A stretch of 41,301 nucleotides of DNA from Bdellovibrio sp. GTDB lineage: Bacteria > Bdellovibrionota > Bdellovibrionia > Bdellovibrionales > Bdellovibrionaceae. Under the pieces are notes generated by a model, which was given only the letters and a program-made list of their open reading frames with translations, had not been told where the DNA came from and did no database searches. The position numbers and the translations under genes were made by a program. The stretch lies in the NCBI GenBank assembly GCA_014376935.1, contig JACMQO010000109.1, forward strand, positions 1 through 41,301, given 5' to 3'. How positions within the stretch are numbered: the stretch's first letter is position 1; every line of letters starts with the position of its first letter. Positions 20,224 to 31,081 of this stretch are shown here, in pieces.

Positions 20224-21162
20224 TTACGGGCGTCCTTCGGTCAGGATACCTTCAATAAGTAAGTCGTGGTCGTTTAAGCACGGAATCAGTTCAAAACTTT
20301 CGCCGCCGGCATGTATGAAATTTTCGTTTAATTCCATACCAATTTCTTCGATCGTTTCTAAACAGTCAGCCACGAACGATGGGCACGCCACGGCCAAATG
20401 CTTAATACCCTTGGCCGCTAAAGCTTGCATCGTATCTTCGGTTGAAGGGCTAAGCCATTTTTTTAAACCGACCCGGCTTTGAAATGCGCTAGAAATTTGG
20501 TCGTCCTTTAATCCCAATTCATTTTGAATCATCTTAGACGTTTCTAAACATTGTTTTTGATACGAGATTCCGGCGTGCACCTCTTGGCTGATCGGAAGTC
20601 CGTGATAAGAAAGTAATAAATGTTGTTTGGGTTGAAGGCGATCCTTAATAATTTGGCTTTGCGCCTTATTGTACCAAGCTTTGTCGTAAAACGGTTCGAT
20701 AATGCTAATTTTTCGCTGGGCATTTTTATTTAGTTGCTCAAGACGTTCAACGCTGCTGTAAACCGTTGCCTGGGCGTAATGCGGATAAAGCGGCATAAAA
20801 TAAATACGATCGTTGGGATCAGATGTTGTGATTTGATCTAAGGCCTGCTGCATCGAAGGCGTACTGTAGCGCATACCCACGATGACTTTCCAGTCGTGAC
20901 CTAACAAGTCTTGTAATTTCTTTTGTAACTTAATGGTATTCACCATCAGTGGTGAACCACCTTCGGTCCATACGCTTTCGTATTTTTTTGCTGACTTAGC
21001 ACTGCGCAAAGGAACGATCCCCACTTTGACGATCAAGTCACGTAATGGCCTACGGATCGGAATAACATTGGCGTCCATTAAAAATTCGGCCAAATATTTT
21101 CCCACGCTTTTCGGTGAATATGTTTCTGGAGTCCCAAGTTGATTTAAGATTAAATAATTCAT
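20224..21162 (-). CDS. hemH: ferrochelatase
   Basis: 'LNQLGTPETYSPKSVGKYLAEFL', 'GGSPLMVNT', 'VGMRYSTPSMQQAL', 'LLSYHGLPIS', 'SAFQSRVGLKKWLSPSTEDTMQAL', 'VACPSFVADCLETIEEIG'. Confidence 0.96.
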   Translation of the reverse strand: MNYLILNQLGTPETYSPKSVGKYLAEFLMDANVIPIRRPLRDLIVKVGIVPLRSAKSAKKYESVWTEGGSPLMVNTIKLQKKLQDLLGHDWKVIVGMRYSTPSMQQALDQITTSDPNDRIYFMPLYPHYAQATVYSSVERLEQLNKNAQRKISIIEPFYDKAWYNKAQSQIIKDRLQPKQHLLLSYHGLPISQEVHAGISYQKQCLETSKMIQNELGLKDDQISSAFQSRVGLKKWLSPSTEDTMQALAAKGIKHLAVACPSFVADCLETIEEIGMELNENFIHAGGESFELIPCLNDHDLLIEGILTEGRP

Positions 21163-22403
21163 GCAATATCCTTTTTAATTCGTTCGGTCAGTCTTAAGTT
21201 GTAATCTAATATCTTAGCTAGGCCGACACCGCCTAAGTAGTTTCCGGTTAAGTACAAAGGCTGCGCGCTTTCTTTTAAGCGAGCGCCATTTTTAAAAACT
21301 TCAAATAAATTTTTTGCTTCAGATCTAGTAAATGAGTCAGACAGAAGAAAGTCTCTTAATTCTAAACCATAAAGTGGTAGGGCTTTTTGGTATTTCGTGA
21401 TTTTAAAGAATTGCGGTTTTTCTTCTGAACCTAACATTTTTTTTCTATCGGCCAGAATCAAATCTAAAATGTTTTCGTTTTTATTTAATATCCAAGTTTC
21501 GCTTTCTAAATGCCCACGATTTGGAAAAATATCGGTATTAAACAACACGCCCAAAGAATTAAAATTTTCTTTAGCCGGAAATAAGCAACCGAATCCTTGA
21601 ATGGATTTTAACTGCCTAAAGCCTAAAGTCGCCGTTACTAAAGGTAAGGTCGGAACTTTTACTAAAGTCTGCGCCGCTAAAGGGGCTTTGGCTGCCAATA
21701 TTTCAACGGCTTTATCGATCGAAGTCGCAATCACAACAGCCGAGAAATCTTTTTCGTTTAGAATTGTCGAAGTCGATAAATGAAATTGAACATTTTTTTC
21801 TTTTAAATATTTTTGCAACGGATCTATTAAACTTCGCATACCTGCTTCAGGAGTAATACTACCTTTTAATTTTCCTTTAGCGGGACGTAAGGCTTTATTA
21901 AACACGCCGCCCATGACTAATTCGGCCGAAAGCTGATCGCTACTTTGACCGTAAATACCTTGAAACCCCGGAGAGACTAAATAATCGTTAAAGTCTGAAC
22001 TCAGACACCGCGTGGCCCATTCTGAAACCATTTCATTTTTTTTAGGCGCGATCTTTTTTGTGATCATGAAGATCACGGCCTTAACCAGCGTCATGGCCGC
22101 TTTCAATTTAGGAATCGGAAACGTAACAGGCTTGTTTTTAAAAATATACCGTTTTTTAGAGCGATAGCCGGCTTCAACAATTTTAACATTTAAATCGGAA
22201 AAAAGATTTTCAACCGATCGACTTGCTAATAAGGCATTGGCTGCTTTTTCAACGGGAATAATTTCTTGATCTGTTCCTAATAAACCGCCGCAATGATCAG
22301 CGGATTCGAATACATCAACTTGAAAGCCTTGCTTGGTTAAAGCCCAAGCTAAGGTCAGTCCTGAAAATCCGGCTCCAATGATGGCGACTTTTTTGTTTGT
22401 CAT
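21159..22403 (-). CDS. hemG: protoporphyrinogen/coproporphyrinogen oxidase, HemY/HemG FAD type
   Basis: KKVAIIGAGFSGLTLAWALTKQGFQVDVFES (FAD-binding), 'YLVSPGFQGIYGQSSDQLSAELV', C-terminal 'LYLTGNYLGGVGLAKIL'. 4-bp overlaps on both sides. Confidence 0.88.
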   Translation of the reverse strand: MTNKKVAIIGAGFSGLTLAWALTKQGFQVDVFESADHCGGLLGTDQEIIPVEKAANALLASRSVENLFSDLNVKIVEAGYRSKKRYIFKNKPVTFPIPKLKAAMTLVKAVIFMITKKIAPKKNEMVSEWATRCLSSDFNDYLVSPGFQGIYGQSSDQLSAELVMGGVFNKALRPAKGKLKGSITPEAGMRSLIDPLQKYLKEKNVQFHLSTSTILNEKDFSAVVIATSIDKAVEILAAKAPLAAQTLVKVPTLPLVTATLGFRQLKSIQGFGCLFPAKENFNSLGVLFNTDIFPNRGHLESETWILNKNENILDLILADRKKMLGSEEKPQFFKITKYQKALPLYGLELRDFLLSDSFTRSEAKNLFEVFKNGARLKESAQPLYLTGNYLGGVGLAKILDYNLRLTERIKKDIA

Positions 22404-23740
22404 AGCGATTTCGAAAAAACCTGCGTTTGTGGTTTTAATAATTTCAATCTTTCATCAAAGAACAAGCAGGCATTACGTAAAAATGGCTTTCCCGCTTCAG
22501 TTAATTGTAAAGAGTCACCTTGAATCGAAACCAGTTGGTCGGCGATCATTTCTTTTAAAAAATCGGCTGCTAACGGAACCTGTTCGGGATTTAATCGCAC
22601 TTGGCCCGTTGTCATAAATTCTAAAATTTGCTGACGACGTTCTTGATCTTCTTTGGTCAATACATGCCCACGGTGGGTCGCGATTTCGCCCGCTTCGACT
22701 TGTTGTTGGTAAGTCGCAAAAACTTTTTCGTTTTGGTGAAAGCTATTTGGCGTTTCGCTAATGCTACTAACGCCTAAACCCAAAAGTACATCAGTTCTTT
22801 GATCGGTATAACCCATGAAATTACGATGTAAAGTTTTATCATTTAAGGCCACGCTCAATGAATCTGTCGGTAACGCAAAATGATCCATGCCTACCTCAAC
22901 GTAACCTGCCGCTAATAAATCTGTGCGGCATAGTTCATAAAGATCACGTTTGGCTTTTCCGGTTGGCAGATCTTCGTCTTTAAATAGACGCTGCGCCGGT
23001 TTAATCCAAGGCACTAAAGCAAAGCTGTACAAAGCAATGCGATCTGGACGTAGTTCGATTGTTTTTTGAACGGTCTCTTTCATCGTGGCTAAGGTTTGCT
23101 TAGCCAAGCCATAAATCAAATCAAAATTGACCGAGCGAAACCCTAAAGATCTGGCCTCATCCGTAATTTTTTTAGTGATATCAAAAGGCTGAATACGGTT
23201 AACTAAACGCTGCACTTCATGCGTAAAATCTTGAACACCAAGACTAACGCGGTCAAAGCCCAATGACTTAAGCATTTTTAATTGTTCATAGTTTGTGCGG
23301 CGGGGATCCACTTCGATCGATCCTTCGAAGTTAGGCGCTAAGTTTAACTGCGATAAAATCGGCTTCAGCATGGCTTCTAACGATGAAGCGGAAAGAAATG
23401 TCGGCGTACCGCCACCAATATGCAAATGTCTTAGTGGTCGTTCTTTTAATTCAGGAACCGCCGTTAAATAAGTTTGCCACTCTTTCAAAATTAAATTCAC
23501 GTAGGGATCTTCACGCTGATGATCTTTTGTGATAATAGTATTGCAACCACAGAATGTACAAAGCGTTTCACAGTACGGAACGTGCATATACAGCGACCAC
23601 GCGCTGTCTTGATTTGTTAAAGCTAGTTTTAAATGTTCGACCCACATCGTTTTTGCCGGGGGCGTTTCCCAATAAGGAACCGTCGGGTATGACGTATACC
23701 GCGGAGCCGGAATATCATATTTCGCAAATAGGTTACTCAC
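22400..23740 (-). CDS. hemN: oxygen-independent coproporphyrinogen III oxidase (radical SAM)
   Basis: 'YTSYPTVPYW', 'YMHVPYCETLCTFCGCNTIIT', 'HIGGGTPTFLS', 'EVDPRRTNYEQLKMLKSLGFDRVSLGVQDF'. Confidence 0.96.
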   Translation of the reverse strand: MSNLFAKYDIPAPRYTSYPTVPYWETPPAKTMWVEHLKLALTNQDSAWSLYMHVPYCETLCTFCGCNTIITKDHQREDPYVNLILKEWQTYLTAVPELKERPLRHLHIGGGTPTFLSASSLEAMLKPILSQLNLAPNFEGSIEVDPRRTNYEQLKMLKSLGFDRVSLGVQDFTHEVQRLVNRIQPFDITKKITDEARSLGFRSVNFDLIYGLAKQTLATMKETVQKTIELRPDRIALYSFALVPWIKPAQRLFKDEDLPTGKAKRDLYELCRTDLLAAGYVEVGMDHFALPTDSLSVALNDKTLHRNFMGYTDQRTDVLLGLGVSSISETPNSFHQNEKVFATYQQQVEAGEIATHRGHVLTKEDQERRQQILEFMTTGQVRLNPEQVPLAADFLKEMIADQLVSIQGDSLQLTEAGKPFLRNACLFFDERLKLLKPQTQVFSKSL

Positions 23741-24762
23741 TAGAATGAACTCCTTACGATTTCAACGAAACGCTTTACGTTTTGTTCAGGCGTTTTTGGT
23801 AAAACGCCGTGACCAAGTCCAGAAACCCAACCTTTTCTTTCGGCAACAGTTAGATCTTGAAATGGCTTTAAATAATTATGTAACGCTTTTTCAAAGTCAG
23901 CGGGCTGCAAATGAAGTAACGACTGATCGAAGTTTCCTTGTACAAAACCGCGCGTATTTTTCTTTAAAACTTCTGGTAAATTGAAACGGTGATCAAGACC
24001 ACGCCCCAACCACGGAATATCTGTAAAAGTTTTTGAAGCGTAGTGATCAGCCGTTGTGCCTTTTGAATAATAACCTAATTTATTCGGATACGCGGCCGCC
24101 AATTTGGCAAGTTCAGGTAAGACGTATTTTGTGTACAACTGCGGTGATAACTCGCCAGCTGCGGTGTCGAAGATCATAACGACGTCAGCGCCGCCTTCGA
24201 ATTGCAAACGAATATTTTCGATTAAAAACGGCGTCATCATTTCGACAAACTTCGGCCATAGATCCATCAGAGCCGTTTTCGTTTTGATTAATGAACCGGT
24301 GTGCGTACCTTCAACAGCGTAAACAAATAAGGTCCATGCGCCACCCACAAAGCCGATCAAACCCTTTTCTTTCGGTAAACGCTGTCTAGTTAATTGCATC
24401 GCTTTTTTTTGAAATTCCATTTCTGGAAGTGCATCTTGCCACGGTTTCAATTGTGAAATATTTTCGGTCGTTAAATGAAAACCTAAACGCGGGCCATGAT
24501 CAGTGTATTCTAAACCCTGACCTAAAGCTTTGAACGGAAACAATAAATCGCTAAATAAGATGGCCGCATCAAAATCAAAATCTTGAATGGGGCCCATCGC
24601 GACTTCGGCCGCTAATTCAGGAACTAAACACAAATCCATAAACGAATGCTTTGCGCGTAAAGCTTGATAATGAGCATGGTATCGACCTGCTTGGCGCATC
24701 ATCCAAATCGGCGGAGTTTGAACCGCTTCACCCGCTAATGTTTGTAAAAATAAATTTTTCAT
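23740..24762 (-). CDS. hemE: uroporphyrinogen decarboxylase
   Basis: 'TPPIWMMRQAGRYHAHYQALRAKHSFMDLC', 'AILFSDLLFPFKALG', 'GFVGGAWTLFVYAVEG', 'GLGHGVLPKTPEQNVKRFVEIV'. Confidence 0.96.
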   Translation of the reverse strand: MKNLFLQTLAGEAVQTPPIWMMRQAGRYHAHYQALRAKHSFMDLCLVPELAAEVAMGPIQDFDFDAAILFSDLLFPFKALGQGLEYTDHGPRLGFHLTTENISQLKPWQDALPEMEFQKKAMQLTRQRLPKEKGLIGFVGGAWTLFVYAVEGTHTGSLIKTKTALMDLWPKFVEMMTPFLIENIRLQFEGGADVVMIFDTAAGELSPQLYTKYVLPELAKLAAAYPNKLGYYSKGTTADHYASKTFTDIPWLGRGLDHRFNLPEVLKKNTRGFVQGNFDQSLLHLQPADFEKALHNYLKPFQDLTVAERKGWVSGLGHGVLPKTPEQNVKRFVEIVRSSF

Positions 24763-24789: not shown

Positions 24790-25473
24790 TTAATTACCAA
24801 TAACCCACTGATAGCCCACACCACGCACCGAACGAATTAATTTTTCATCCGTATCACCAATGGCACTTCGTAACCGAGCAACGGCATTGTCAATTGTTCG
24901 TGGACTTAAACTTTTATCTTCGCCCCAGACTTGATTAATGATCTCGTCGCGACTGACAACACGTGGGGCTTGTTCAACAAGTAACTTCAAAATCATCATA
25001 TCTTTGACCGGAGGGTATTCGATGTTGCCATTCTTTAAGTGCAACGAATAGCTTTGCAGATCAATTGAACAATGATCTAAATCGATTTTTTGCGAAACAA
25101 CATGGGCATTCAAAACATGCTTCACGCGAATCATAACTTCTTTTAAGTGAAACGGTTTTGGAATGTACTCTTCAGCACCTAACTCGTAACCCTTTAATCG
25201 TGACTCAGGGTCACTTTGGGCTGTTAAAAAAATAAAATGCGGCTTTACCGCGCCTTCTAACGAGTTAGCAATCGTATATCCGTCCCCATCGGGAAGTCCG
25301 ACATCTAAAATCAATAGATCATATTTCTTACTTTTAATAAGTTGCATCGCTTCGGCTTGGGTCGTCGCCCAGTCGACTTCGTACGCGGCCGGCAAAGGCT
25401 CGGATAAAAGTCTTTCTTTTAAAATTTTTCCTAAAGTTACATCATCTTCAACGACTAATATTTTTCCCGACAT
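24790..25473 (-). CDS. two-component response regulator, OmpR/winged-helix type
   Basis: Receiver 'ILVVEDDVTLGKIL...LLILDVGLPDGDGY...FLTAQSD...GAEEYIPKPF'; output 'VVSRDEIINQVWGEDKSLSPRTIDNAVARLRSAIGD...IRSVRGVGYQW'. Confidence 0.95.
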   Translation of the reverse strand: MSGKILVVEDDVTLGKILKERLLSEPLPAAYEVDWATTQAEAMQLIKSKKYDLLILDVGLPDGDGYTIANSLEGAVKPHFIFLTAQSDPESRLKGYELGAEEYIPKPFHLKEVMIRVKHVLNAHVVSQKIDLDHCSIDLQSYSLHLKNGNIEYPPVKDMMILKLLVEQAPRVVSRDEIINQVWGEDKSLSPRTIDNAVARLRSAIGDTDEKLIRSVRGVGYQWVIGN

Positions 25474-25474
25474 A

Positions 25475-26356
25475 TTAGTTCGCCTTGCTTTCGGGGGCTG
25501 CCGGCAAAATCACTTCAACTTTAAAACCAGTGTCTGCCTTTACAAAATGAATTTGTCCTTGCATTTTTTTTAATAGGTCACGGGTCAAGTAAAGTCCTAA
25601 GCCATTCCCCTGCTGATTCTTCGATTTAAAAAGCTGCGATCCTAATTGTGAATAATTGCCGGCAAAACCAACGCCATCATCTGTGATAGCTATTCGAAAT
25701 GTGTTCTTTTCAAGAACGGGTGTCACTTGAACCGATTTGGCCTGACCATGAAGCGAAGCATTTTGAAATAGATTTCTAAAAACACTTTTCAAGGCTTGTT
25801 CGTCGGCTAAAACGAACGCGTCTTTATTTAATTTGATCTCTAAAGCAGGCCATTCAACCCGCAAAAAAGCGATGACTTTATTTAATGAAATGGGTTGAAC
25901 ACGAATTAAGTTCGAATCGATACGGGCCATCCACAAAGAATTTTCTAATTGCAGATCAAGACGGTTCACTTCTTCCATAATTCTTTGAAGTTCTGGATCT
26001 TGATTTTTATCTGCCAAAACCTCGGTCGTTAAACGCAGCCGTGTTAAGGATGTTTTCAAGTCATGCGTAAAGTTAGAAAAGAAACTTCTTAACCGGCGGT
26101 TACGACTGACTTCGCGGTTCATTAAGACAAGCAAAAAAGAGCCTCCAAAAAAAACGGCGGCCACTAAAACTGATCCTTCCCAAATCAGCATTCGGTGTAA
26201 GCGATCAAATTTTTCTGGCGTTAACACATCAACAAGTAAAGTTAATTGTCGTAACGAAAAAACCCACCACCAGGAAACCAAAGCAAACGTAAATAAAAAA
26301 CAAATAAGTGACACCGCAAATTTTAATCGTCCCGATTTTAAAATGGCGTCGCTCAT
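25475..26356 (-). CDS. sensor histidine kinase
   Basis: Two TM segments with a short intervening loop; 'FTHDLKTSLTRLRL' H-box, 'FRNLFQNASLHG' N-box, 'AITDDGVGFAG', 'GNGLGLYLTRDLL'. Confidence 0.93.
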   Translation of the reverse strand: MSDAILKSGRLKFAVSLICFLFTFALVSWWWVFSLRQLTLLVDVLTPEKFDRLHRMLIWEGSVLVAAVFFGGSFLLVLMNREVSRNRRLRSFFSNFTHDLKTSLTRLRLTTEVLADKNQDPELQRIMEEVNRLDLQLENSLWMARIDSNLIRVQPISLNKVIAFLRVEWPALEIKLNKDAFVLADEQALKSVFRNLFQNASLHGQAKSVQVTPVLEKNTFRIAITDDGVGFAGNYSQLGSQLFKSKNQQGNGLGLYLTRDLLKKMQGQIHFVKADTGFKVEVILPAAPESKAN

Positions 26357-26359
26357 AAT

Positions 26360-27634
26360 TTATATACCTTTGACTGCCGCAGTTAATATGCGCACAGACT
26401 CGTCTAAAACTTGATCCGTATGTGCTAAAGATAAAAACCCAACTTCGTACGCATTCGGGGCTAAATACAAGCCGGCTTCTAAAGCCGCTAAGAATATTTT
26501 ATTAAACACTTCTTTTTGACCCGCAGGAATTTGTTCTAAGCGGCGAATGGGTTGGTCTGATTTTAAATGAAACCAGAATAGACTTCCTTGACGAAGAAAT
26601 TGAATTCTTTTTTCGGCCAAAATGGGGCTTAAGGCTTTTTCAAAGCGCGCACCCTTTTCTTCTAATAATTTCCAACCATTTTGCTTTTCCATTTTTTGTA
26701 AGGTGCATAGGCCAGCCCGCATTCCGACAGGATTCGCACTTAGGGTACCGGCTTGATAAACCGGCCCCAACGGAGCGACTAAATCCATTAATTCTTTTTT
26801 ACCACCGTAACAACCGACCGGAAATCCACCACCGATCACCTTACCGTAGGTCACTAAGTCGGGCGTGATTCCTAAAACTTCAGCCATACCACCTAAAGCC
26901 ATACGAAAGCCTGAGATCACTTCGTCAAAAATTAAAAGGACGTTATTTTTTTTCGCAAGCTGAGCCACTTTTTCTAAAAATTCTTTGCGCTGAATTAATA
27001 GACCGTAATTGGCTGGAAGCGGCTCGATAATCACGGCCGCTAATTCTGACGCGTGCTTCTGAAACATTTCTTCTAATAATTTATCATCATCTAACGGACA
27101 AACAATCGTCGTCTCGGCAACTGGTTTGGCGATACCTGCACTTGTTGAAGCGGCGACACCAGCTAAGCCGCTACCTGCCTTTACTAAAAGTGAATCGACG
27201 TGCCCGTGGTAACACCCTTCAAATTTTAAAATCTTATCTTTACCGGTTGCGGCACGCGCAACACGAAGTGCGCTCATGACGGCTTCAGTACCTGAAGATA
27301 CGAAACGCAATTTCTCAACCCAAGGAATACGGGACGTGATCCATTCGGCCAGTTCTAAACTGTAAGGTTCACACGCACCAAAGCTCCATGCCGTGCTGAT
27401 CATCTCGTGCACTTCGGCTTCAATTTCGGGATCGCGGTGGCCTAATACTAACGGACCGAAACTTTGACAAAAATCAATGTACTCTTTGCCTTCAACACTC
27501 CAAAGTTTAGCACCGTGGGCTTTTTTGAAAAAAACGGGCTCGCGCCCCATACCAGCAAAACTACGCACCGGAGAATGCACTCCGCCCGGAGAAACTTTTT
27601 TGGCGCGTTCGAATAAATCTTTTGATGAAATCAT
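26360..27634 (-). CDS. hemL: glutamate-1-semialdehyde 2,1-aminomutase
   Basis: '[30 protein letters not shown]', '[21 protein letters not shown]', '[20 protein letters not shown]', '[17 protein letters not shown]', '[16 protein letters not shown]'. Confidence 0.97.
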
Positions 27635-27679: not shown

Positions 27680-29110
27680 TTAAAATAGCTCGATGTAAAC
27701 ATTTTCGCTTGAACCTAACTTATTACATATTGAATGATAAGTTCGTCCCGGACCGCAAATATGGGCGGCCATCTTTATTTCTGGAAATCGTTTTAACGCG
27801 ACATCAAACTCTTGGGGGCTGGTCCACACAAAAGCGCCGGGCGATTGAACATCTTTTGAGAGCAGTTCGAATTCTAGCTGATACGTGGCAAATGTTTTCT
27901 TACCCGCGTCAGTCGTCGAATCTAAATGGCTTAAACGTCCCCATGTTAAAGGCGCACTAAAAAAAGGCTGAATGCGTTCGTCTTCTTGTTCGCCCAAAGA
28001 TTCGCTAGAACCATTGACCCAAATACCTTGGGCTGAAAGTTTCTTCCATGTTTCAAGGCCCGCACTCCAAACCGTTCCTGAAAATTTTAAGTCAGCGGGC
28101 CATGCATCGGCTTTCGCTACATATAAGGCGTCTACGCCAGAAACATCTGGAGTCGGCAATGATTTTCGAATAGCTTTAAATTCTAATCTTTGTTTGATCA
28201 ATGAATCTGGAACTTTTTTATTCGGAATCATTTTTTTGCTCGACACCGAACCACCGGCCGGAGTTAAACCTTGCACGATTTCAATTTGACCATAAGGTCT
28301 AGTTAAACAACTCATGCCTAAAGCTAAGTGGCAACCACCGCCATACGATTTTAAAATCTGCCGCTCTTTTTCAGCCGCCACGAATGAATCCGCGCAATTA
28401 ATTTTTTGAACTAAATCAAAAATATCTTTGCGGGTATTCTTAATTTCGACCGCAAGGGCCCCTTGTGCCGCCGCATTCGGATTCAGGGTTAAGGGTAAAA
28501 CCATCCAATCGCAATTTTGTATCGACTCTTGCAGAAAAGATTTGGTTTCGGCAAAACGATCGCCATCTAGCAACCGATCTAATGCCGCCTTAGCTAAGAT
28601 AAGGCCATCGGTATTTGAATCGGCTAACCATTTTCGAATTCGTGTTGGAATATTGCCGCGAATATTTTCGAATTTTAATTCATCTTTTGACCACGGTAGC
28701 GACCAGTCAAAAAAGTTTTTCAAATTATGCATACGTCGCGGTGAAGACGTAAAAATTTGAACGTTTTTTTTACCACGCGATGATTTTTTAAAAAGTAATA
28801 GGTCGCGCTGATCCGCCCGCTTTAAAGTCGCCGCGATCATCGTTTCAGGCGTCATCTCGGTTGGAAGGTCCTTCCAAGAGTGCACAATCATGTCGGTTTT
28901 TTCATTCACCAAATCGTCATAGAAGTCTTTTGTGAAAACGCCTTTTTCGGGCATTTTCCATAACGGATCTTGTTGATTGATGTCACCTAAAGATTCTCTG
29001 AATAAATATTCAACTTCTAAACCGGGCTGTGCCTTTTGCAACGATTCACCGACTTGGTACGCTTGCCAGCGCGCCAATTCACTTTGCCTAGAAGAGATCT
29101 TGATTTTCAC
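27680..29110 (-). CDS. hemC: hydroxymethylbilane synthase (porphobilinogen deaminase) with a ~165-aa C-terminal extension that may be a divergent uroporphyrinogen-III synthase domain
   Basis: 'ISSRQSELARWQAYQV', 'GVFTKDFYDDL', 'VHSWKDLPTE', 'TSSPRRMHNL', 'NIRGNIPTRIRKW', 'GGGCHLALG'. 476 aa versus about 310 for canonical HemC; tail has 'FVWTSPQEFDVAL' and 'ICGPGRTYHSICNKLG'. Confidence 0.88.
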   Translation of the reverse strand: MKIKISSRQSELARWQAYQVGESLQKAQPGLEVEYLFRESLGDINQQDPLWKMPEKGVFTKDFYDDLVNEKTDMIVHSWKDLPTEMTPETMIAATLKRADQRDLLLFKKSSRGKKNVQIFTSSPRRMHNLKNFFDWSLPWSKDELKFENIRGNIPTRIRKWLADSNTDGLILAKAALDRLLDGDRFAETKSFLQESIQNCDWMVLPLTLNPNAAAQGALAVEIKNTRKDIFDLVQKINCADSFVAAEKERQILKSYGGGCHLALGMSCLTRPYGQIEIVQGLTPAGGSVSSKKMIPNKKVPDSLIKQRLEFKAIRKSLPTPDVSGVDALYVAKADAWPADLKFSGTVWSAGLETWKKLSAQGIWVNGSSESLGEQEDERIQPFFSAPLTWGRLSHLDSTTDAGKKTFATYQLEFELLSKDVQSPGAFVWTSPQEFDVALKRFPEIKMAAHICGPGRTYHSICNKLGSSENVYIELF

Positions 29111-30006
29111 AGGTCATCCCATCCAAACGGACGAACATGCGCCCGCTTTTCAGCTTGAGCCTTCCAATCGGCGATCGAGCTATTCGCTTTCTTAATATTC
29201 GACTGAATACTTTCTTGCTGGTTTGCCACGTCAGTCGTGAAATCATCTAAGTGACTGTAAGAGGCTAAATTATTTTTATGCACATACGTTACCGAGTCTT
29301 TGCGGAAATCATAAACTGAAACCGGAGATTCTTTCTGTCTGACTTTAATAAAGATATTTAACTCGTCATGCGATAGCGGCGCCGCCACAACTAAATGTTT
29401 TGCCACAGGGGCATCCGCATTCAAATCTAAAATAGCAGAAGCCGCTGAACCGTATATTGTTTCTTTCACTTTACCAGCGTCCCGACACCAAATGCGGTAC
29501 GCCCATTTTTTTTCAATCCACGGAATCATTTCTTCAACCAATTGACCGGCACCGATAAAATCAATCACGGCACTTGAATCTTTTGTTTCGGTGATCTTTT
29601 TACGAAGAAGTGAACCGTAACTTTGCGATCCTAACCCGTACAAGTTTTCTTCGCGCGTTTTTTTAACGACCGCAAAAATTTGCTGAATTTGTTTATCAAA
29701 CTTATTTTTAAAATCAGAATCTTTTAACGACTGCCACCAATTTTTAAATTGGCCGAAAACTTCAGTCTCGCCAACAAGCGGACTTTTTAAACCGCACAGA
29801 ACTTGAATTAAAAATTCTTCAGCATCTAAGCCAAAATAAATTTCTTCCGTGTTTGTTAAATCAAAATCTAAAACGCGTTGCTCTTCAGAAAAGAAAATTT
29901 GCCTGCGACAAGTCTCCCACATTAAAAATGCGGGTTCTTTCAAAATATCTTTTCCAACACCTGAAGATGATTGAAAAGAATGGTGAATAATTATAAGATC
30001 AGACAT
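29107..30006 (-). CDS. hemA: short, divergent glutamyl-tRNA reductase
   Basis: 'WETCRRQIFF' at the active-site Cys region, 'CGLKSPLVGETEVFGQFKNWW', 'FIGAGQLVEEMIPWI' (nucleotide-binding). Only ~300 aa. Start at the second Met (30006) is more likely than 30012. Confidence 0.82.
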   Translation of the reverse strand: MSDLIIIHHSFQSSSGVGKDILKEPAFLMWETCRRQIFFSEEQRVLDFDLTNTEEIYFGLDAEEFLIQVLCGLKSPLVGETEVFGQFKNWWQSLKDSDFKNKFDKQIQQIFAVVKKTREENLYGLGSQSYGSLLRKKITETKDSSAVIDFIGAGQLVEEMIPWIEKKWAYRIWCRDAGKVKETIYGSAASAILDLNADAPVAKHLVVAAPLSHDELNIFIKVRQKESPVSVYDFRKDSVTYVHKNNLASYSHLDDFTTDVANQQESIQSNIKKANSSIADWKAQAEKRAHVRPFGWDDL

Positions 30007-30037
30007 ACACATAAGTTATCATGTAGTTTTCATTAAA

Positions 30038-30100: not shown

Positions 30101-31081
30101 ATGTCACAAATTCAGCGCCCACGTCGAAACAGAAAGAACCAAGCCATCCGAGACCTAGTTTCTGAGACCCAAATTCTGACACAAAATCTAATTTACCCGG
30201 TCTTTGTTTGCGAAGGCAACAACACCGAAACCCCGATCAAAGCCATGCCCGGCCAGTCGCGCTGGACCCCCGATTTACTTTCAAAAAAAATCACTGAATG
30301 GAAAAACTTAGGCCTTAATCATTACGCCTTATTTCCACAGATCGAAGAAAGCAAAAAAGATTCACGCGGCACCGAAGCTTTGAACGATAACGGGCTTCTA
30401 CCCGACACGATTAAACGTTTAAAAGACGATCACCCTGAAATAAATATTATTGCCGATGTCGCACTTGATCCATTTTCTTCAGATGGTCACGACGGTGTGG
30501 TTGAAAATGGAAAAATTTTGAATGACGTATCGGTTGAAATTTTATCGCAAATGGCATTAAAGCAAGCGCAGTGGGGAGCCGACTGGGTCGCTCCATCTGA
30601 TATGATGGATGGCCGCATTGGTTCGATTCGAAAATTATTAGATCAACATAATTTCACAGATGTAAATATTTTGGCATACTCGGCTAAATACGCATCTTGC
30701 TTTTATGGACCATTCCGCGATGCCTTGCAGTCAGCACCAAAATTTGGCGATAAAAAAACTTACCAAATGGATCCGCGCAACACGCACGAAGCCTTACGCG
30801 AAACTCTTTTAGATATTGAAGAAGGCGCCGACATGGTCATGGTTAAACCAGGTCTTCCGTACTTAGATGTGATCGCCCGAATTAAAGATATCTCGTCAGT
30901 TCCGGTTGCGGCTTACAACGTCAGCGGCGAATACGCGATGATCAAAGCCGCCGTCGCCATGGGAGTTTTAGACGAAGACAAAGCGATCTATGAAACCATG
31001 ATCGCTTTCCGCAGAGCCGGAGCCAGCGCGATTTTGACGTACTTTGCTCCGCAAATGGCGAAACTACTTCGCCTCAACTAA
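30101..31081 (+). CDS. hemB: delta-aminolevulinic acid dehydratase (porphobilinogen synthase)
   Basis: 'NLIYPVFVCEG', 'DVALDPFSSDGHDGVVENGKILND', 'GADWVAPSDMMDGRIGSIRKLLD', 'ILAYSAKYASCFYGPFRDA', 'MVKPGLPYLDVI', 'AYNVSGEYAMIKAA'. Confidence 0.97.
   Translation: MSQIQRPRRNRKNQAIRDLVSETQILTQNLIYPVFVCEGNNTETPIKAMPGQSRWTPDLLSKKITEWKNLGLNHYALFPQIEESKKDSRGTEALNDNGLLPDTIKRLKDDHPEINIIADVALDPFSSDGHDGVVENGKILNDVSVEILSQMALKQAQWGADWVAPSDMMDGRIGSIRKLLDQHNFTDVNILAYSAKYASCFYGPFRDALQSAPKFGDKKTYQMDPRNTHEALRETLLDIEEGADMVMVKPGLPYLDVIARIKDISSVPVAAYNVSGEYAMIKAAVAMGVLDEDKAIYETMIAFRRAGASAILTYFAPQMAKLLRLN

Follow-up and report, generated by a model that had tools for sequence, protein, structure and literature searches.

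A short HemA without the dimerization domain or active-site histidine of canonical glutamyl-tRNA reductase is conserved across Bdellovibrionota and shared with Leptospira

RESULTS AND DISCUSSION

A minimal glutamyl-tRNA reductase-like protein in Bdellovibrio

The 41,301-nucleotide stretch of Bdellovibrio sp. DNA analyzed here (the window) carries a hemA gene whose product, judged from its sequence, is probably (about 85%) the only glutamyl-tRNA reductase (GluTR) of the cell and would represent a minimal type that works through a cysteine thioester and NADPH. Models of GluTR stress a V-shaped dimer that acts as a cradle for HemL, together with a conserved active-site histidine; the window protein has neither the dimerization domain (domain III) nor the histidine. 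A preliminary description had read the gene as an odd, truncated HemA. Our analysis supports that interpretation at the sequence level and widens it, since the gene belongs to a conserved minimal type and does not stand as a single oddity. The features of the gene are as follows.

29107..30012, minus strand: short hemA (glutamyl-tRNA reductase-like), 301 amino acids (aa), identified from the open reading frame (ORF), Pfam GlutR_N, profile matches to GluTR structures, and hhalign
29902..29913, minus strand: nucleophile motif T34-C35-R36-R37 (E. coli T49-C50-N51-R52); Cys and Arg each in 96/96 short homologues
29812..29814, minus strand: codon for Phe67 at the canonical His position (E. coli His99, M. 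kandleri His84); His in 0/96 short homologues
29749..29793, minus strand: conserved block G74-L-K-S77-P-L-V-G81-E82-T-E-V-F-G-Q88; G74, S77, E82, and Q88 each in 96/96
29482..29553, minus strand: NADPH-binding (Rossmann) signature, G154-x-G156 to R177; each in 96/96 (E. coli G189, G191, R214)
29110..29133, minus strand: C-terminal tail R-P-F-G-W-D-D-L, in the place of the dimerization domain; P295 in 77/96, G297 in 76/96, W298 in 80/96, D300 in 77/96

The frame begins with ATG, with a further in-frame Met at residue 3, and its 3' end overlaps by 4 bp the start (GTG) of hemC (27680..29110, minus strand). Both this overlap and the unusual shortness of the product (about 300 aa had been estimated) agree with the preliminary description, and the ORF contains the C-terminal sequence that it quoted as well as both of its motifs, WETCRRQ and EEFLIQVLCGLKS.

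Profile methods relate the protein to GluTR

Taken alone, the window protein scored weakly against Pfam and the PDB, and profile methods were therefore needed. The catalytic-domain model GlutR_N (PF05201) was matched at 38.9 bits (cut-off, 27), but only from profile position 68. The hemA equivalog model TIGR01035 (NCBIfam) scored the protein at 37.7 bits, far below its cut-off of 209.55, so that curated criteria do not call it a HemA. When the sequence alone was searched against the PDB, matches were marginal, with M. kandleri GluTR (1gpj) ranked first. A profile of 42 relatives, in turn, matched 1gpj at 3.7e-15 and Arabidopsis GluTR (4n7r) at 1.9e-11, and hhalign against canonical full-length GluTRs gave an E value of 8.7e-24 spanning E. 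coli residues 39 to 336. Identity to full-length HemAs is 15 to 19%.

The end of the protein aligns with E. coli residue ~336 of 418, and Pfam found no dimerization domain (PF00745) in the window ORF, bearing out the earlier claim that this domain is absent. An AlphaFold model, built from a two-sequence alignment and unreliable over its N-terminal 60 residues, places a 37-residue helix (255 to 291) after the Rossmann domain at modest confidence (mean pLDDT, 57); Foldseek with this model returned 1gpj as the best match (E value, 5.6e-6). Given the length of the predicted helix, the initial portion of the spinal helix appears to be largely present and the domain after it missing. The earlier suggestion that the protein stops soon after the spinal helix begins therefore holds for the missing domain but probably not for the helix itself. 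The presence of the NADPH-binding Rossmann domain rests on the invariance of G154, G156, and R177 and on the hhalign coverage rather than on Pfam Shikimate_DH.

The catalytic signatures are kept and the histidine is lost across short homologues

To score residue conservation, we counted over 96 distinct short homologues, whose median length is about 304 aa. Invariant in all of them are Cys35 (E. coli C50), Arg37 (R52), Gly74 (G106), Ser77 (S109), Glu82 (E114), Gln88 (Q120), Arg120 (R153), Gly154 (G189), Gly156 (G191), and Arg177 (R214), which in the alignment match invariants of canonical GluTR. With E. coli HemA, 1gpj, and 4n7r, the short type thus shares the T-C-x-R motif, S109, E114, Q120, K150/R153, the Rossmann GxG, and the equivalent of Arg214; like the full-length relatives in the phylum, it also lies upstream of hemC.

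The short type differs from these canonical proteins in its lack of a dimerization domain, in its shorter N-terminal domain (the Cys is preceded by 34 residues, not 49), in its additional conserved tail, and in several active-site columns. At E. coli His99, which we take to be the catalytic or active-site histidine of GluTR, the window protein has Phe67, aligned with M. kandleri His84 in the 1gpj alignment and with His99 in the family alignment, just as the preliminary description had it. This column lacks His in every short homologue, where Phe predominates and Leu, Tyr, and Arg also occur, whereas 24 of the 26 full-length-type HemAs of the comparison set have it. The possibility that the histidine or the dimerization domain had merely been rearranged, also raised earlier, finds no support in this count or in a gene that runs directly into hemC. 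Glu54 is invariant in the full-length set, and every short homologue has Ile, Leu, Val, or Met instead; with this position always hydrophobic, the short type may act on a different substrate or by a different mechanism. The Asn51 column is mostly Leu or Gln, with Arg in the window protein. The Gln116 column is mostly Glu, which is unremarkable since M. kandleri has Glu too. Tyr132 and Arg137 are newly conserved, and the tail appears as P-x-G-W-(D/E)-D in about four-fifths of the 96. In the literature that we searched, we found no description of a missing His or a missing dimerization domain in short HemA, and no biochemical assay of such a protein.

The short type is the standard hemA in most sampled families of the phylum

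A hemA gene is present in 97 of 141 genomes from the order. The short form occurs in families f1, f3, f5, f7, and f9, and full-length hemA (open frames of 386 to 431 aa) in nine genomes of f2, f4, f6, f8, and f10. A survey of 369 genomes of the phylum added short matches in f11, f12, f20, f22, f24, f26, and f27. The short type is therefore the standard hemA in most sampled families of the phylum. In trees of short and full-length HemAs, a branch with 100% support separates the short proteins from the rest. Ratios of dN/dS between pairs of close relatives are 0.05 to 0.10. In nearly every locus read, hemC directly follows hemA, usually overlapping it; in most loci that extend far enough, hemL is the next gene or lies a short way beyond.

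Short GluTRs have a known precedent. Model NF001909 (PRK00676), which we take to be that of chlamydial HemA (Chlamydia), has 338 positions, likewise far below the ~416 of the canonical model. The window protein scores 15.8 bits against it (cut-off, 478) and does not belong to the same subfamily. Within the phylum, family f15 offers another case: a 334-aa HemA in genome G288 (locus L099, 961-1965, minus strand) ends just past the point where the spinal helix begins, and the hemC start lies within its stop codon; the HemA of its sister L100 also lacks domain III. Unlike the short type, these proteins have a canonical active site (STCNR, His present) and fall among the full-length HemAs in the tree, which indicates that their loss of domain III was independent. 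Domain III thus appears dispensable in more than one line.

The window genome has no other hemA

The preliminary description had considered a second, canonical hemA elsewhere in the genome; no second hemA-like gene was found in the window genome, which is 99.5% complete. The genome gave no match to ALA synthase (TIGR01821), and it has hemL, hemB, hemC, hemE, and hemH. With no other hemA and no ALA synthase match, the short protein is the only candidate for the step that forms glutamate-1-semialdehyde (GSA). PF00745 also had no match in the window genome, although this model is insensitive, as it detects only three of the nine full-length HemAs of the order. Of the 141 genomes, 92 carry both hemA and hemB, 5 have hemA without hemB, 1 has hemB without hemA, and 43 have neither.

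The gene heads a heme operon with its own two-component system

On the minus strand, the gene leads a complete heme operon, which reads hemA-hemC(D)-hemL-sensor kinase-regulator-hemE-hemN-protoporphyrinogen oxidase-like-hemH, with hemB divergent.

30101..31081, plus strand: hemB, divergent from hemA (ALAD, 454.9 bits)
27680..29110, minus strand: hemC with a C-terminal extension in the HemD position (HemC, 187.6 bits; 40% identity to Leptospira HemCD along almost the entire length)
26360..27634, minus strand: hemL, glutamate-1-semialdehyde aminomutase (NF000818, 533.6 bits; 62% identity to Leptospira HemL)
25475..26356, minus strand: sensor histidine kinase, HemK-like (32% identity to the Leptospira heme-operon kinase)
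24790..25473, minus strand: response regulator, HemR-like (48% identity to the Leptospira heme-operon regulator)
23740..24762, minus strand: hemE (URO-D, 275 bits)
22400..23740, minus strand: hemN-like radical SAM coproporphyrinogen oxidase (Radical_SAM, 76.8 bits; position matches Leptospira hemN)
21159..22403, minus strand: FAD amine-oxidase family protein, likely protoporphyrinogen oxidase (Amino_oxidase, 34.9 bits; position)
20224..21162, minus strand: hemH, ferrochelatase (Ferrochelatase, 295 bits)

The two-component system inside the operon (24790-26356, minus strand) is HemKR-like. The C-terminal ~186 aa of hemC (27680-28240, minus strand) form an extension that has no Pfam match in genomes with short HemA; in relatives with full-length HemA (L087 and L083) the extension is a recognizable HemD (HEM4). 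HEM4 had no match anywhere in the window genome, and Leptospira has the same fused HemCD form. The extension probably represents a HemD that has diverged very far.

Leptospira has the same short HemA and a similar operon

In a tblastn search of plasmid records, a 289-aa homologue (27% identical to the query, 97% of which is covered) turned up on two Leptospira interrogans replicons. The operon there is collinear and reads hemA-hemCD-hemB-hemL-HK-RR-hemE-hemN, with the short hemA first. Like the window protein, the L. interrogans short HemA (LIC20008/LB010; WP_000269773.1) has Phe at the His position; it carries its own Cys motif (WSTCMR), the motif GEQSYGG, and the tail FGWEEL, and hemCD follows directly, as hemC does in the window. 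The two arrangements differ in hemB, which lies within the operon in Leptospira and is divergent in the window.

The Leptospira gene has been named hemA in publications (PMC7567364, PMC3953431), although RefSeq record WP_000269773.1 is annotated "hypothetical protein." In L. biflexa, loss of the two-component system lowers expression of hemA, hemE, and hemL and makes growth dependent on added heme or ALA (PMC2266917), a phenotype that fits an ALA-forming role for the heme operon. The system is shut down by ALA (PMC11426443), and the same regulators were likewise linked to heme genes in B. bacteriovorus in 2008 (PMC2266917). 

A proposed mechanism and its alternatives

In the proposed mechanism, the first step would be attack by Cys35 on the aminoacyl bond of Glu-tRNA(Glu). 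NADPH held in the Rossmann domain would reduce the resulting thioester to GSA, and HemL, encoded two genes downstream, would then convert GSA to ALA. In canonical GluTR, domain III carries dimerization (PMC6399207) and the enzyme is a V-shaped dimer (PMC6399207, PMC7242693). Because the short type lacks domain III, a V-shaped dimer cannot form through it, and we infer that the enzyme is monomeric or uses a different surface for association. For a replacement contact, whether with itself or with HemL, the best candidate would be the conserved tail RPFGWDDL, and the role of His99 (with Asn51 and Glu54) may be taken by other residues or not be needed.

The location of dimerization in domain III of the canonical enzyme (PMC6399207) and a tail that looks like a binding motif could also mean that the short protein is one subunit and that a separate, unrecognized protein supplies the dimerization domain and perhaps a general acid/base. 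We consider this unlikely: PF00745 finds nothing in the genome (with the limited sensitivity given above), the loci read have no additional conserved gene between hemA and hemC or hemL, and the f15 HemAs do without domain III while keeping a canonical active site. The loss of His99, Asn51, and Glu54 and the high divergence from full-length HemAs (15 to 19% identity) might instead point to a protein that is no longer a reductase, such as a regulator or a thioester enzyme with another substrate, with ALA coming from elsewhere. This seems more improbable still, since the NADPH and Cys signatures are invariant, hemL is kept and ALA synthase was not found in the genome, hemA and hemB co-occur almost perfectly, and the heme operon of Leptospira has been connected with the supply of ALA (PMC2266917).

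Short length is all that would speak for a frameshift, an assembly error, or a decaying gene with the dimerization domain hidden downstream, and we give this next to no weight. The 96 distinct homologues of similar length fall in a single clade under strong purifying selection, and hemA stops within the hemC start, which makes the downstream DNA hemC on the same strand. Clade-wide conservation and the low dN/dS refute a frameshift or pseudogene, and the earlier argument against a sequencing frameshift, based on a frame that reads straight into hemC, is thereby strengthened.

Beyond the reading of the window gene as the sole, minimal GluTR, we tentatively propose, at somewhat less than even odds, a broader scenario. 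The short proteins may form a deep-branching GluTR class without the dimerization domain, His, Asn51, and Glu54 that passes GSA to HemL via a new C-terminal docking tail, and this class may have spread between Bdellovibrio-type predators and Leptospira together with the whole heme operon, its ALA-responsive two-component system included.

Conservation of the short form across the clade and in Leptospira suggests that the pairing domain and the usual His may not be essential. A natural, phylum-wide GluTR without them would show which parts are essential for recognition of Glu-tRNA, reduction of the thioester, and channeling of GSA, and it would offer a small construct for structural work. The annotation is also corrected for a family that automatic models miss, including its Leptospira member.

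Heme synthesis across the order

Neither hemA nor hemB is present in several near-complete genomes of the genus to which the window belongs (G047, G048, G049, G051, G057, and others), and heme synthesis therefore appears to have been lost repeatedly. The only true ALA synthase score in the order (560.7 bits) comes from genome G121 (C59:22801-23964), which is not among the hemA and hemB matches. In G131 and G132 (g60), the hemA family match spans one in-frame TGA each, which could reflect a shortened tail or a sequencing error.
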